DNA from: Bacteroidota bacterium
GTDB taxonomy: Bacteria; Bacteroidota; Ignavibacteria; Kapaibacteriales; HRBIN21
NCBI GenBank assembly: GCA_030550395.1
Contig: JAUQPL010000005.1
Location: 66,007-130,006 of the forward strand
Direction of reading: 5' to 3'
Length of the DNA stretch: 64,000 bases
Under the pieces are notes generated by a model. The model was not told the origin of the DNA, made no database searches, and saw only the letters and a program-made list of their open reading frames with translations. Below, one piece after another: positions 47,114-59,931 of the stretch. Every line of letters starts with the position of its first letter. Position 1 is the stretch's first letter. A program made the translations under genes and the position numbers.

Positions 47114-47126
47114 CTTGCATTGTCCG

Positions 47127-48764
47127 ATGTGCGCGCCCTGGAAGGTATGCTGGGCGTGGGGAATAGCTACTGCTATTGCCTGTGCCCAGAGTACGTTCAG
47201 CGTCCAGCTGCCCAACGGGCGTACCTATGAATTGCCTCTTCGGGCTATTGGCGGATATCCCGCCGCTTCTCTTGCTCATTGTGCCATACTTTGGGAAGGA
47301 AAGGCGCGGCTAAGCGCCAGAGGCACGGTACTTTCTACCCCCCATGGCGTCATCCGGGCTGCACCACTGAGTTTTTTCCTCGCCTGGGAACGACGCGATT
47401 CCAGCCACTTCATTCAGCTCCCCGTGCCAGTCCAATCTGACGGGCAACACCTTTTCGTCTCCCTCCACGGTCTTGGTGAAGCAATAGCAGCTCTCTGGGA
47501 AGCCCAGGCCGTATGGGACAGTCCTACAGTGCTACGCTTGCGCTATGCACCAGCGCCTGTGGTAACGACATCGCCCCCTTCGCAACCCATTCCGCCTCCC
47601 CGCATCGCTCCTCTCCCCATCCCCCCTGATACAGCGTTTGCTCCCCGTCCTCCCCGGCTCCCCCAGCGCGAGTCCTCTTCCAATCCCTGGCTTCTGGCAG
47701 CCTTAGGGAACAGCTTCGCTGCCACTCTGGTGGAGATCGTTCAGGTGGAAGCACAAACTCTCTCCGACACAACAATCCTCCTACGCTTCCGCGCCAATGG
47801 CGTCATTGAACGCTACCAACGCCCGGAGTGGCAAGGACAACAACTTGTGGTGCGCATTCCCGATGTTCTCCATACAGCTCCTACTTTGCCCTCTTTACCG
47901 GCAATTGAACGCTCCGAAGTCCAGCGAATCCGGGAGTTCACAGTCTATCGTTTCTCCTTCCGCTCGGAGATTCGGGAATGCAAATCAGAACGCGAAGGGC
48001 CCCGAACACTTCGCTTTACCGTTCTCCTCAAAGGAGGCGCGGCAACACCGACTCAGCGCTGGGAACTGGACGTTATTGTCATTGACCCCGGACATGGGGG
48101 GGAGGATGATGGCACAATCAGCATCAACGGACATGCGGAAAAGACCATTACTCTTCGCGTTGCTTTAAAGCTCCGTCGCTTACTGCACCGCATGCTGCCG
48201 CATGTGCGGGTTGTACTTACTCGGGATGAGGATCGCTTCGTTCCCCTTTACCGTCGTGGGCAGATTGCCAATGAACAGCAGGGGAAGTTGTTTCTCAGTC
48301 TCCACTGTAACGCCGCTCCCACCAAACCCCATCCCGCACGCGGGGTAGAAACGTACGTTCTCCGCCCTGGACGCACGCCGGAAGCTATCCGCGTTGCCGA
48401 GCGAGAAAACGCCGTTATCCGCTTGGAAGCAGACCCATCGCGGTACAAGGAGCTATTTGACGAACAGCGCATCCTGGCAACCTTAGCGCAGAGCGCCTTC
48501 ATGCGACTCAGCGACCGACTCGCTGCATTCGTACAGCAGGAGCTCGTCAGCACTACGGGACTTCCCGACCGCGGCATTGGGCAGGCGGGCTTCTACGTGC
48601 TCATGGGCGCTTCTATGCCTGCTGTCCTCATCGAGATGGGCTTTCTCTCCAACCCCGCCGACGAGCGCTTCCTGATCTCTGAGCGTGGGCAATGGGCTAT
48701 CGCTCGTGCTATCGCCCGCGCCATTCGCCGGTATGCCGCTGAATATGCCTCTCTTCTCCGATAG
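47127..48764 (+). CDS. N-acetylmuramoyl-L-alanine amidase
   Basis: A 545-residue periplasmic enzyme that cuts the peptide from peptidoglycan. After the signal, residues ~25-130 resemble the copper-amine-oxidase N-terminal (stalk-like) domain. A Pro-rich linker follows, then an AMIN-like domain (~205-300). The C-terminal amidase_3 domain has zinc ligands in DPGHGGEDDG, HAEKTITLRVA and SLHCNAA, and the catalytic Glu in IEMGFLSN. The ATG at 47127 was preferred to an in-frame TTG at 47115. Its stop abuts the convergent uvrA stop with no gap. Confidence 0.93.
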   Translation: MCAPWKVCWAWGIATAIACAQSTFSVQLPNGRTYELPLRAIGGYPAASLAHCAILWEGKARLSARGTVLSTPHGVIRAAPLSFFLAWERRDSSHFIQLPVPVQSDGQHLFVSLHGLGEAIAALWEAQAVWDSPTVLRLRYAPAPVVTTSPPSQPIPPPRIAPLPIPPDTAFAPRPPRLPQRESSSNPWLLAALGNSFAATLVEIVQVEAQTLSDTTILLRFRANGVIERYQRPEWQGQQLVVRIPDVLHTAPTLPSLPAIERSEVQRIREFTVYRFSFRSEIRECKSEREGPRTLRFTVLLKGGAATPTQRWELDVIVIDPGHGGEDDGTISINGHAEKTITLRVALKLRRLLHRMLPHVRVVLTRDEDRFVPLYRRGQIANEQQGKLFLSLHCNAAPTKPHPARGVETYVLRPGRTPEAIRVAERENAVIRLEADPSRYKELFDEQRILATLAQSAFMRLSDRLAAFVQQELVSTTGLPDRGIGQAGFYVLMGASMPAVLIEMGFLSNPADERFLISERGQWAIARAIARAIRRYAAEYASLLR

Positions 48765-56917: not shown

Positions 56918-57565
56918 ATGTCCCAGCTGACAACGTTGAGCCTCGCCAGCGACGAAGAACTCATCCAGGAGTTCCGGCAAGGGGATCGCGAGCGCGCGGC
57001 GGCACAATTCGTCCGGCGTTACCAGCGTTTTGTCTACAGCGTCGCATACCGATATCTGGGACGTCACGAAGATGCTCAGGACGCTGCACAGGAAGTCTTC
57101 CTAAGGGCGTTTGAAAACCTGCACCGCTTCCAGCAGCGGAGCAGTATCCGCACATGGCTTTACCGAATTACGGTTCGTGTTGCTCTTGGTATGCTGCGCC
57201 AACAGAAACGATCTGCGTGGGTTCATTGGAACGATGCCTTTTCAGAGGATGAGGAGCCAACAAGCCCATCGCTATCGCCGGAACATATCCACGAGCGCCA
57301 GGAATTTGAGCACTACTTCCACCGTCTCCTCCAAAGCCTACCGGAGAAACAGCGCGAAACCTTTGCGCTCCGTTACATTGAAGGGCTCTCCTACGAAGAG
57401 ATCTCGCGCATGCTGGGAACCAGCATTGGCGGGCTGAAGGCAAACTACTTCCTAGCTGTGCGCAAAATCGCCAAGGCTCTTTTGAATGGTCCGTATGCGG
57501 AATACTTCCGCCAAGCTCTCAACACCAATGGGAACCCGAGCAAACACGAGCATATCCCGCGCTGA
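56918..57565 (+). CDS. ECF-family RNA polymerase sigma factor
   Basis: A 215-residue sigma-70 family factor. Region 2 covers residues ~25-95 (FVYSVAYRYLGRHEDAQDAA, VFLRAFENLHRFQ, IRTWLYRITV). Region 4 covers ~145-200 (LPEKQRETFALRYIEGLSYE, EISRMLGTSIGGLKANYFLA). An acidic linker joins them. Its last 38 nt overlap the next gene, a likely anti-sigma factor, so its activity is probably controlled by membrane sequestration. The third gene is a Spy-like periplasmic protein, suggesting an envelope-stress response. Confidence 0.92.
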   Translation: MSQLTTLSLASDEELIQEFRQGDRERAAAQFVRRYQRFVYSVAYRYLGRHEDAQDAAQEVFLRAFENLHRFQQRSSIRTWLYRITVRVALGMLRQQKRSAWVHWNDAFSEDEEPTSPSLSPEHIHERQEFEHYFHRLLQSLPEKQRETFALRYIEGLSYEEISRMLGTSIGGLKANYFLAVRKIAKALLNGPYAEYFRQALNTNGNPSKHEHIPR

Positions 57566-58124
57566 ACTTGAACTCTTGCTGCCCGACTACGCCTTCGGGC
57601 GCTTGTCCGCGGAGGAAGCAGCAGCAGTTGAAAAAGCCTTGCGGGAGCACCCCGACCTCTGTGCCGAAGTAGAAATGCTCCGAGCTGTTTTCCACCGTCT
57701 GGAAGCTATAGGATACCTGCGCGAGCAGGAGCACCACTGTAGTATGCTCTCCGTCCAAGTTCTTAACCGTTGGCGAGAACGCCAGGCATCCTCATCCCAG
57801 CAGCGCTGGAAGCCTGTCCTCACGGTTCTCCTCCCCGCTTTAGGGCTTGCTTTCTTTGCTCTGTGGTGGCACAGCACACAACGGGGAAAAGCTCCTTCTT
57901 CTCCGGAACCGAACCTGGAATGGGTTGCCACTGACCAGGCAGAGCCATTTCCCTACACCGATGGCATCTTGACTTTCGCTTATTGGTCCTCTGGCATTCC
58001 TCCGCTAAGCCAGCCATCTCCCTCTGTTCTGAGTCTGGAAGGGACCGAGGATATCAGTGAAGTTGTTATTGACGCAATTGCTGAACCAGAATTCGGGAGC
58101 AGGCATGCAAGCCAAGCACCATAG
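57528..58124 (+). CDS. Probable anti-sigma factor with one membrane helix
   Basis: A 198-residue protein. The N-terminal ~70 residues look like an anti-sigma domain (LLLPDYAFGRLSAEEAAAVE, then LREHPDLCAEVEMLRAVF), without the Hx3CxxC zinc motif. A single helix (WKPVLTVLLPALGLAFFALWW) near residue 100 crosses the inner membrane, and the C-terminus would be periplasmic. The ATG at 57528 was chosen within the 3' end of the sigma gene, which implies coupled translation and matched amounts. The role is inferred from position and topology. Confidence 0.7.
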   Translation: MGTRANTSISRAELELLLPDYAFGRLSAEEAAAVEKALREHPDLCAEVEMLRAVFHRLEAIGYLREQEHHCSMLSVQVLNRWRERQASSSQQRWKPVLTVLLPALGLAFFALWWHSTQRGKAPSSPEPNLEWVATDQAEPFPYTDGILTFAYWSSGIPPLSQPSPSVLSLEGTEDISEVVIDAIAEPEFGSRHASQAP

Positions 58125-58605
58125 GGTGTTTATTCTTTCCCTGTTGCTCACCGCTTCAGGATTTCTCCAAGCGCAATCACCCTCTCCTTGGGAAGCATTG
58201 ACAGCACCCTATGCGCGCCAGATGCGACAGCACGCCAAAGAACGGCTGCAGCAGTGGAAGATGATTCGACTACTCCAAGAGTTGGGCTTGGACGAATCCC
58301 GCGGTCACCAGTTCCTGATACGTTACACGAGCTACAACCGGCGCATTGATAGCCTCTTGCAGCGGACCGACAGCATTGCTCAGCAACTTGCTTACTCCCT
58401 TCAGCAATCCCCAGAAGAGGTCTACCGCTGGTCCCAGGAATTCCTGCGCCAACAGCAAGAACTTTACCGTGTCTTCCAGCAGCGGACTGAGTCTCTCCGT
58501 CCGCTGCTGACTGAGGAGCAGTTTGCCCGCTACATTCTCTTTGAGTACCGCTTCCCTCGGGAGGTAGAGCGATTGCTCCTTCGCTGGCATAAGGGAAAAC
58601 GCTGA
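58105..58605 (+). CDS. Spy/CpxP-like periplasmic helical protein
   Basis: A 166-residue protein with a signal peptide (MQAKHHRVFILSLLLTASGF, cleaved near LQAQ). The mature part is helical and rich in Arg, Gln and Leu, with RHAKERLQQWKMIRLLQELG-like amphipathic helices and an LTEEQFARYILFEYRF segment resembling the LTxxQ motif of Spy and CpxP. These bind misfolded proteins in the periplasm. The start overlaps the anti-sigma gene by 20 nt. The assignment rests on pattern and context, so it is tentative. An attenuator-like terminator follows. Confidence 0.6.
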   Translation: MQAKHHRVFILSLLLTASGFLQAQSPSPWEALTAPYARQMRQHAKERLQQWKMIRLLQELGLDESRGHQFLIRYTSYNRRIDSLLQRTDSIAQQLAYSLQQSPEEVYRWSQEFLRQQQELYRVFQQRTESLRPLLTEEQFARYILFEYRFPREVERLLLRWHKGKR

Positions 58606-58713
58606 AAACCGTCACCGGTGCAGGTTCCCCCGTTCCCTCTGTCCAGCCACCGCTCATGGGCATATTGCTACCGTTTGTCAAATTCCCCCTTGCCATTTAG
58701 GGAAAGGGTAAAG

Positions 58714-58721
58714 TAGTTTTG
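58714..58721 (+). promoter_or_regulatory. TTG-N21-TAGTTTTG promoter-like element
   Basis: TTG at 58690-58692, then 21 nt, then TAGTTTTG. The only thing downstream before the terminator at 58763 is about 40 nt of sequence. It may drive a short RNA, or may instead be part of an attenuator leader. Confidence 0.4.
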
Positions 58722-58726
58722 CTCCC

Positions 58727-58805
58727 GTCAGGCGGCGCACGTGGCGCAGTTGGCGTGGATGAGCTGGTTTTGTTCCGGAAGGGAGCAAAACCAGCCTTTC
58801 TTTTT
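58727..58805 (+). ncRNA. Possible short RNA ending in a strong terminator
   Basis: If the element at 58714-58721 is a real promoter, transcription would start near 58728 and end at the terminator, giving an RNA of roughly 80 nt. Nothing in it was recognised. Confidence 0.25.
58763..58805 (+). terminator. Strong Rho-independent terminator
   Basis: A 14-bp stem (58763-58776 with 58782-58795, one G-U pair), a 5-nt loop, then CTTTCTTTTT. It also ends the sigma-factor operon in a read-through case. Confidence 0.85.
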
Positions 58806-58831
58806 CCGGGGACGGTCTAATGGATTTCGCC

Positions 58832-58839
58832 TAATTTTG
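58832..58839 (+). promoter_or_regulatory. TAnnTTTG -7 element for tRNA-Glu
   Basis: TAATTTTG ends 14 nt before the tRNA 5' end. Confidence 0.65.
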
Positions 58840-58853
58840 TACTCAGCTCTGAT

Positions 58854-58925
58854 GCCCCCATCGACTAAGGGTTAGGTCACCACTCTTTCAAGGTGGCGGT
58901 ACGGGTTCGAATCCCGTTGGGGGCA
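58854..58925 (+). tRNA. tRNA-Glu (UUC)
   Basis: Cloverleaf with acceptor GCCCCCA/TGGGGGC, anticodon arm CCACT-CTTTCAA-GGTGG with anticodon TTC, and T arm ACGGG-TTCGAAT-CCCGT. Discriminator A at 58925; the 3' CCA is not encoded. It is the only tRNA on the plus strand here. Confidence 0.97.
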
Positions 58926-58959
58926 CACGCACAGGAGTGGGGGCGCTTTATAAGAGGGA

Positions 58960-59931
58960 ATGCCCGTATACGCTGTCACAGGTTGCGCAGGTTTCATCGG
59001 ATGGCGGACCGCCCAGCGACTCTTGGAAGAAGGCGCGACGGTCGTCGGGATAGACAATCTCAACGACGCGTACGATCCTCGGTTGAAGTGGTGGCGATTG
59101 CATCAACTTCAGGCATATGCGAACTTTCACTTCGTGCAGGCCGATGTTACGAATAAAGATGCCATAGAACCGATTCTTCGGCAGTTCCGCCCCGAAGCGC
59201 TTCTCAACTTAGCCGCCCGAGCTGGTGTGCGGCAAAGTCTTCAGGACCCATGGAGTTACTACGCGACAAACGTCATTGGCACACTGAACCTCCTGGAACT
59301 TTGCCGCCAGCTGGGCATTAACAAGTTCGTCCTCGCTTCCACTTCCAGCGTCTACGGTGCGGCATCCCCCCCGTTTCGCGAAGATCAGGTCCCCGACTGC
59401 CCCCTCTCACCGTATGCGGCTTCCAAGCGTGCCGCTGAGCTGCTGTGTGCAACGTACCACAGCCTCTACCGACTGGACGTCACCGTACTTCGCTACTTTA
59501 CCGTCTATGGCCCTGCCGGACGTCCGGATATGAGCTTGTTTATTTTCACAGAGCGCCTTCTCCGAGGAGAACCGTTAGAGATCTACGGCGACGGACTCCA
59601 GGAGCGAGATTTTACGTACGTGGATGACATTGTCGATGGCACCATTCGCGCCCTTCGTCCAGTCGGCTATGCTGTGATCAACCTGGGCAATAACCGGCGC
59701 GTTCGCCTTCTGGAGGCCATAGCGATGTTAGAGCAACTTCTGCAACGGCAAGCACAATTGGTCTTCCGGGACCCCCACCCCGCCGATATTCCAGCCACGG
59801 AAGCTGATATCAGCCGTGCATCTGCTCTCCTCCAGTGGCAGCCTCGGACTCCTTTTGCTGAAGGACTCCGTCAGATGGTCACATGGCATCTGCAATACCG
59901 TCGCGAAGCTGAGGTAATCCGCATTCAGTAA
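58960..59931 (+). CDS. NAD-dependent sugar-nucleotide epimerase (UDP-glucuronate 4-epimerase-like)
   Basis: A 323-residue extended short-chain dehydrogenase. The N-terminal TGCAGFIGWRTAQRLLEEG binds NAD. NLAARAGVRQS, the LASTSSVYGA strand and the catalytic YAASK tetrad (Tyr-x3-Lys) follow, then YGDGLQERDFTYVDDI. These features, with RPDMSLFIFTERLLRGEP, fit the UDP-glucuronate 4-epimerase/GalE branch. It likely supplies sugar nucleotides for a surface glycan. The gene lies 34 nt after tRNA-Glu and its stop overlaps the GT-C gene start (TAATG). Confidence 0.9.
   Translation: MPVYAVTGCAGFIGWRTAQRLLEEGATVVGIDNLNDAYDPRLKWWRLHQLQAYANFHFVQADVTNKDAIEPILRQFRPEALLNLAARAGVRQSLQDPWSYYATNVIGTLNLLELCRQLGINKFVLASTSSVYGAASPPFREDQVPDCPLSPYAASKRAAELLCATYHSLYRLDVTVLRYFTVYGPAGRPDMSLFIFTERLLRGEPLEIYGDGLQERDFTYVDDIVDGTIRALRPVGYAVINLGNNRRVRLLEAIAMLEQLLQRQAQLVFRDPHPADIPATEADISRASALLQWQPRTPFAEGLRQMVTWHLQYRREAEVIRIQ

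Follow-up and report, generated by a model that had tools for sequence, protein, structure and literature searches.

A candidate LytTR-controlled short RNA gene beside tRNA-Glu in an uncultured Kapabacteria-type lineage

Results

Overall arrangement of the locus

In the window, as we call the whole stretch of 64,000 nucleotides that was analysed, the segment from 58649 to 58805 is best explained as a self-contained gene in which a regulator of the LytTR family would activate a terminated RNA of about 75 nt, and in which the match between the promoter and one arm of the terminator is fortuitous; we put the probability of this explanation as a whole at roughly 0.7. The regulator, a response regulator with a LytTR domain and the sole one of its kind found in the genome, would bind the two 9-bp repeats at 58649–58678 and recruit RNA polymerase to the TTG at 58690 and the -7 element TAGTTTTG (58714–58721), transcription would start near 58727, and the RNA would end at the terminator at 58763–58805. 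The tRNA-Glu and epimerase genes would be transcribed from their own promoter further downstream, and the 11 nt that an initial annotation had taken for one arm of an attenuator (58716–58726, here segment 1) would be promoter DNA, mostly not transcribed. The short RNA gene adjoins tRNA-Glu and probably does not control it.

Table 1. Features of the tRNA-Glu locus in the window, and loci of the C-rich small RNAs of the genus.
Feature	Position	Strand	Remarks
Sigma/anti-sigma operon	56918–58605		ECF sigma factor, overlapping putative anti-sigma factor, third ORF
Third repeat copy	58629–58637	+	Weak and doubtful; 20 nt before repeat 1; 5/9 matches in the 21-nt register
Direct repeat 1, ACCGCTCAT	58649–58657	+	Predicted half-site of a LytTR regulator; 21-nt periodicity, published repeat format
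Direct repeat 2, ACCGTTTGT	58670–58678	+	12 bp after repeat 1
TTG of a possible -33 element	58690–58692	+	11 bp after repeat 2
-7 element, TAGTTTTG	58714–58721	+	TAnnTTTG, Bacteroidota primary sigma factor
Segment 1, GTTTTGCTCCC	58716–58726	+	Within the -7 element and the predicted start region
Predicted short RNA	58727–58805	+	Predicted to start near 58727 and to end at the T tract; Rfam gives no match at the gathering score
Intrinsic terminator	58763–58805	+	Stem 58763–58795 and T-rich tail; counterpart in G002
Right-arm stretch of the terminator, GGGAGCAAAAC	58781–58791	+	Includes one loop base; complementary to segment 1
-7 element of the separate tRNA-Glu promoter, TAATTTTG	58832–58839	+
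tRNA-Glu (TTC)	58854–58926	+
NAD-dependent epimerase gene	58960–59931	+
C-rich small RNA	L185:1387–1498	-	LytTR-type promoter
C-rich small RNA	L184:1599–1702		LytTR-type promoter
C-rich small RNA	L186:1600–1707		LytTR-type promoter
C-rich small RNA	L146:1360–1467	-	LytTR-type promoter
C-rich small RNA	L165:1364–1467	-	LytTR-type promoter
C-rich small RNA	L120:1578–1683		LytTR-type promoter

The locus was compared between the genome of the window (G000) and five congeneric genomes (G001–G005). All six have the same order of genes: a sigma factor, an anti-sigma factor and a third conserved ORF, then tRNA-Glu, the epimerase and a further gene. The putative anti-sigma factor has a zinc-finger match below the Pfam cut-off, and the third ORF is without a Pfam match. 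The promoter and the terminator are jointly present in the gap 5′ of tRNA-Glu in three of the six genomes (G000, G001 and G002), and neither was found in G003, G004 or G005, where tRNA-Glu and the epimerase are present as in the others. The terminator of G001, which is bulged, was missed by our terminator script and seen in the fold, so another bulged stem could be missed as well.

This distribution bears on a rival explanation, namely a plain terminator that ends the upstream sigma/anti-sigma operon, preceded by a stretch that resembles a promoter by chance, with no small RNA at all. The terminator does sit about 160 nt after the operon, and such operons need an end; however, G003–G005 keep the operon beside tRNA-Glu with no terminator found (by a script that can miss bulged stems), and the repeat-bearing promoter and the terminator occur only together. 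We consider a plain terminator unlikely.

Promoter and direct repeats

The -7 element TAGTTTTG conforms to TAnnTTTG, given as the Bacteroidota -7 consensus in a passage of PMC7366714. Near -33, where the consensus is TTTG, the window and G001 both have CTTG, with the TTG at the same spacing after the repeats; in G002 the -7 element is GAATTTTG and there is no TTG at -33. A sigma-70 scan gave no promoter at this site, which is to be expected for a promoter of the Bacteroidota type. Judging from the position of these elements, transcripts probably begin near 58727.

Upstream of the core lies the arrangement that points to a LytTR regulator. The binding sites of such regulators are described as 9-bp (8–13 bp) direct repeats about 12 bp apart (passages in PMC6193735, PMC2766830 and PMC4064291), found by one survey mostly 10 bp before the -35 (as reported in parts of PMC6193735 and PMC2766830). 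The window has the layout ACCGCTCAT–12 bp–ACCGTTTGT–11 bp–TTG–21 bp–TAGTTTTG, that is, two 9-bp repeats just 5′ of the -33 position, centred about 63 nt 5′ of where transcription is predicted to start. Bases 2–9 of repeat 2, together with the next C, read CCGTTTGTC and are identical to the published AlgR site algD-RB3; the AlgR sites are CCGTTCGTC and CCGTTTGTC (in a passage of PMC4064291), and repeats in G001 and in the window have exactly these cores. Repeats of CCGTT or CCGCT exactly 21 nt apart number two in G000 and in G002 and three in G001, and the last CCGTT is 45–46 nt from the TTTTG of the -7 element in all three modules at the tRNA-Glu locus. The repeats are conserved at the orthologous promoter in each of the three genomes that bear the module, the other three of the six being without it.

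A regulator that could read such a site is encoded in every one of the six genomes (92–100% complete), with one LytTR gene found in each; the proteins of the other five are 48–67% identical to that of G000. The G000 gene encodes a receiver and a LytTR domain, is followed by a gene for a TPR protein with a His_kinase domain, and lies on a contig other than that of the window.

The repeats were also assessed by counting. By themselves, pairs of repeats are no commoner than expected by chance (5 in the window, 3.4 per simulated window), and the site-pair patterns are not clearly enriched over reversed controls (5 vs 3; genus-wide, 20 vs 24 and 70 vs 76), so the argument for LytTR rests on geometry, position and synteny. 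A repeat pair with a perfect TAnnTTTG 25–44 nt after its second repeat occurs once in the window, at 58649, and in none of 60 simulated windows.

A promoter model built from 12 modules with every tRNA-Glu locus excluded (R3) ranks 58630–58725 first in the window (43.7 bits, E 1.1e-12), although it is not fully independent because its modules were first found by patterns, or by a model R1 described below, that drew on tRNA-Glu loci. At the same locus it gives 58 bits in G001 (E 8.9e-18) and 20.2 bits in G002 (E 5.6e-6), and nothing above 6.2 bits in G003–G005. The second-best match in the window (14.7 bits, E 0.0012; 48429–48481, minus strand) is antisense to a long ORF at 47115–48764 and is probably due to chance.

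Terminator and short RNA

The terminator of the initial annotation is present, with a stem of 14 pairs (58763–58795), a 5-nt loop and then the T-rich tail. Terminator-like sites are no more frequent in 58000–59600 than in shuffles (2, compared with a mean of 1.7); the predicted RNA, 58727–58805, folds better than all of 200 dinucleotide shuffles (z -4.2). Below the gathering score of Rfam, the predicted RNA has chance-level matches alone. The RNA would be about 75 nt long in the window and about 75–105 nt across G000, G001 and G002, and the likeness between the RNAs of the window and G002 is loose. The terminators of G000 and G002 can be aligned, their stems differing and both pairing, with at least one two-sided change, U-A to C-G, when read by eye.

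Two other identities for the RNA were considered and rejected. An SRP-like RNA had been suggested by the loop stretch CCGGAAGGGAGCA; RF00169 is without a match in the window, and the one match in the genome lies elsewhere. As to a short conserved peptide, ORFs do begin within the RNA in both G000 and G002, but by eye they do not amount to one conserved peptide, and the longer of them continue past the terminator and into the tRNA.

Complementarity between promoter and terminator

Segment 1 (GTTTTGCTCCC) is indeed, letter by letter and at the coordinates first annotated, the perfect 11-nt reverse complement of 58781–58791 (GGGAGCAAAAC). When the 80 nt upstream were put through 20,000 mononucleotide shuffles, an exact 11-nt match to 58781–58795 (the arm and adjoining loop base) arose twice and one of at least 10 nt 17 times; with stem bases alone the match is 10 nt, and of the 99 terminator-like hairpins found in 684 kb of other loci, one reaches that length. 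By these counts the complementarity is locally unusual. Of the letters in common, five (TTTTG) are also the core of the promoter element.

From this complementarity the initial annotation had derived a mutually exclusive terminator and antiterminator. In such an attenuator, upstream transcripts would carry segment 1, which would pair with the right arm and permit read-through into tRNA-Glu and the epimerase; as segment 1 resembles the left arm and cannot pair with it, competition for the right arm is the only kind possible. The rarity of the 11-nt match in shuffles speaks for it, as does a scan without any terminator-like site from the end of the upstream ORF (58605) to 58763. The competition is nevertheless lost: in folding from four upstream starts the terminator has a probability of 0.99998 and the alternative pairing one of 8e-8 to 6e-7, the pairing of segment 1 with the right arm being 8.9–10 kcal/mol worse than the free fold, which contains the terminator. 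In a growing chain (3-nt steps) this pairing peaks at 0.03 and then vanishes, and the right arm emerges last, beside its left-arm partner.

Nor is the pairing conserved. In a comparison that covered about 20 nt around each element, segment 1 and the right arm form 11 exact pairs in G000 and 4 in each of G001 and G002 (5 and 6, respectively, with G-U counted), and G003–G005 retain tRNA-Glu and the epimerase with neither promoter nor terminator found. Two side remarks of the initial annotation fared better: the overlap of segment 1 with the -7 element at 58714–58721, offered there as an alternative, is well supported, with the position of the promoter predicting that segment 1 lies mostly outside the transcript, and the tRNA does appear to have a promoter of its own, with a -7 element just 5′ of tRNA-Glu in all six genomes (TAATTTTG in five, TAATTTCG in one). 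With the folding competition lost and the pairing not conserved, the attenuator was rejected, and we regard it as very improbable. Attenuators of amino-acid operons such as trp, the class with which it would be compared, resemble the proposal in that an alternative pairing near a terminator was envisaged; unlike them, the window has no conserved alternative pairing, a negligible antiterminator probability and no leader peptide that we recognised, and its decisive segment is, by our prediction, promoter DNA.

C-rich small RNAs and other promoters of the genus

All six genus genomes have a C-rich small RNA behind the same LytTR-type promoter (Table 1). These RNAs (six, one or more per genome) are composed of a GGTACTC hairpin (GGTAGCTC in G003), a C-rich stretch like CTCCCCCACCTTTCCCCACCC (CCCACC-type), which is anti-Shine-Dalgarno-like, and a terminator, and they are without a match in Rfam. 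In five genomes the C-rich RNA lies 5′ of an Lrp/AsnC-type gene, and in four of those five the gene upstream of it is what we take to be DNA polymerase I; the contig of G002 ends upstream of the RNA. G001 has no C-rich RNA at the Lrp/AsnC locus, its copy being found at the tRNA-Glu locus, where the RNA has the C-rich motifs and scores 73.6 bits with R2, a model built from the six C-rich RNAs that matches those six, this one included, by construction. The C-rich RNAs of G000 and G002 lie at a locus other than that of tRNA-Glu. G002 also has a second, tandem copy just upstream of the first (L198:1762–1872, minus strand), which was not in the training set and scores 28.4 bits. Eight weaker R2 matches in the genus have 18.9–26.8 bits, and outside the genus, within the order, there are weaker matches in ten genomes (best in G036, E 2.4e-4).

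The RNA of the window was tried as a member of this family and as its antisense partner, and neither could be upheld. The best overlapping R2 match has 3.6 bits (E 7.6), and the duplex energies with the C-rich RNA of G000 are no better than those of dinucleotide shuffles: for the 5′ part of the RNA, the four combinations are equalled or bettered by 43%, 72%, 87% and 82% of 500 shuffles.

A further explanation accepts the promoter and the RNA as real, assigns the repeats to a different regulator or to none at all, and makes the RNA a decaying relative of the C-rich RNA that G001 has at the tRNA-Glu locus. This would fit with an RNA that is without the C-rich stretch, with the C-rich RNA being elsewhere in G000 and G002, and with repeat pairs that are not by themselves above chance. 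Against it, the -7 element, the TTG and the repeat spacing are intact in the window, and the terminator stems of G000 and G002 differ yet both pair; only one LytTR gene was found per genome, and the AlgR-like core is exact. Taken whole, this explanation seems to us quite improbable, and as between a regulatory RNA and a decaying copy, a regulatory RNA is somewhat more likely.

Similar promoters occur elsewhere in the genus. R1, a promoter model made from 11 modules, finds 16 places at E ≤ 1e-3 in a search of 119 relatives, all within the six genus genomes (4, 3, 2, 1, 3 and 3 in G000 to G005, in that order); 11 are training sequences and five are new, and the other 113 of the 119 genomes have no match at E ≤ 1e-3 under stricter filters, with which weak matches are lost. 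By eye and Pfam, six of the 16 places are ahead of C-rich small RNAs, two belong to the tRNA-Glu-locus RNAs of the window and G002, five precede large ORFs (all but the one at G005:C29 were scanned, giving two with DUF11 and two without a Pfam match) and three precede tyrosine recombinases.

At the large ORFs, the LytTR-type promoters (L129, L117, L119, L127 and L130) have leaders of about 120–300 nt; DUF11 is found in the ORFs of L129 and L117, while L127 and L130 have a strong hairpin at the 5′ end of the RNA. The promoters at L181, L142 and L188 (a weaker match) lie 5′ of tyrosine recombinase genes of the phage-integrase family, and part of the leader at both L181 and L142 looks like the C-rich small RNA; in L142 the complement of this part comes next.

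A broader picture, which we offer tentatively and at less than even odds, is that the genus has a compact regulon under a single LytTR two-component system, with the C-rich RNA as its most constant output and the RNA of the window as a second, diverged small RNA with a target of its own.

Discussion

LytTR-controlled small RNAs are already known (RNAIII, and VR-RNA with VirR, a LytTR-family regulator), and the gene in the window probably adds one candidate to them. RNAIII of Staphylococcus aureus is far longer than about 75 nt, contains the coding sequence of delta-hemolysin and has the agr operon as its neighbour, whereas in the RNA of the window, which comes from an uncultured Kapabacteria-type lineage, no conserved ORF was seen, and its presumed regulator is encoded on a different contig. 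The likeness is in the position of the LytTR repeats: the two direct repeats bound by AgrA have their midpoint about 60 nt 5′ of where the regulatory RNAIII starts (according to a passage of PMC4227749), compared with about 63 nt from the predicted start here. In Clostridium perfringens, a two-component system activates a small RNA, VR-RNA, as well as other genes (stated in a part of PMC4691137), and among the references of PMC2766830 is one to the binding of VirR to two imperfect direct repeats. VR-RNA has 386 nt and acts on toxin mRNAs, in contrast to the RNA of about 75 nt in the window.

The sites themselves resemble those of AlgR of Pseudomonas aeruginosa, whose cores recur in the repeats of G001 and the window; AlgR sites, however, are not necessarily direct repeats with a 12-bp spacing and can be far from the promoter (as a passage of PMC4064291 has it), while those of the window are tandem, at a 21-nt spacing, and close to the promoter. 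Among the open-licence papers that we searched, we found none that links Kapabacteria with a small RNA, and none that joins LytTR, Bacteroidetes, a binding site and a small RNA; for LytTR response regulators together with sRNAs and direct repeats, one genome paper on Flavobacterium columnare was listed.

In essence, a tempting attenuator call is replaced by a testable circuit in an uncultured lineage, made up of one kinase/regulator pair, a readable predicted binding site and a few candidate outputs, among them small RNAs, DUF11 proteins and tyrosine recombinases. The C-rich small RNA shows enough conservation across the genus to serve as a guide in target searches.
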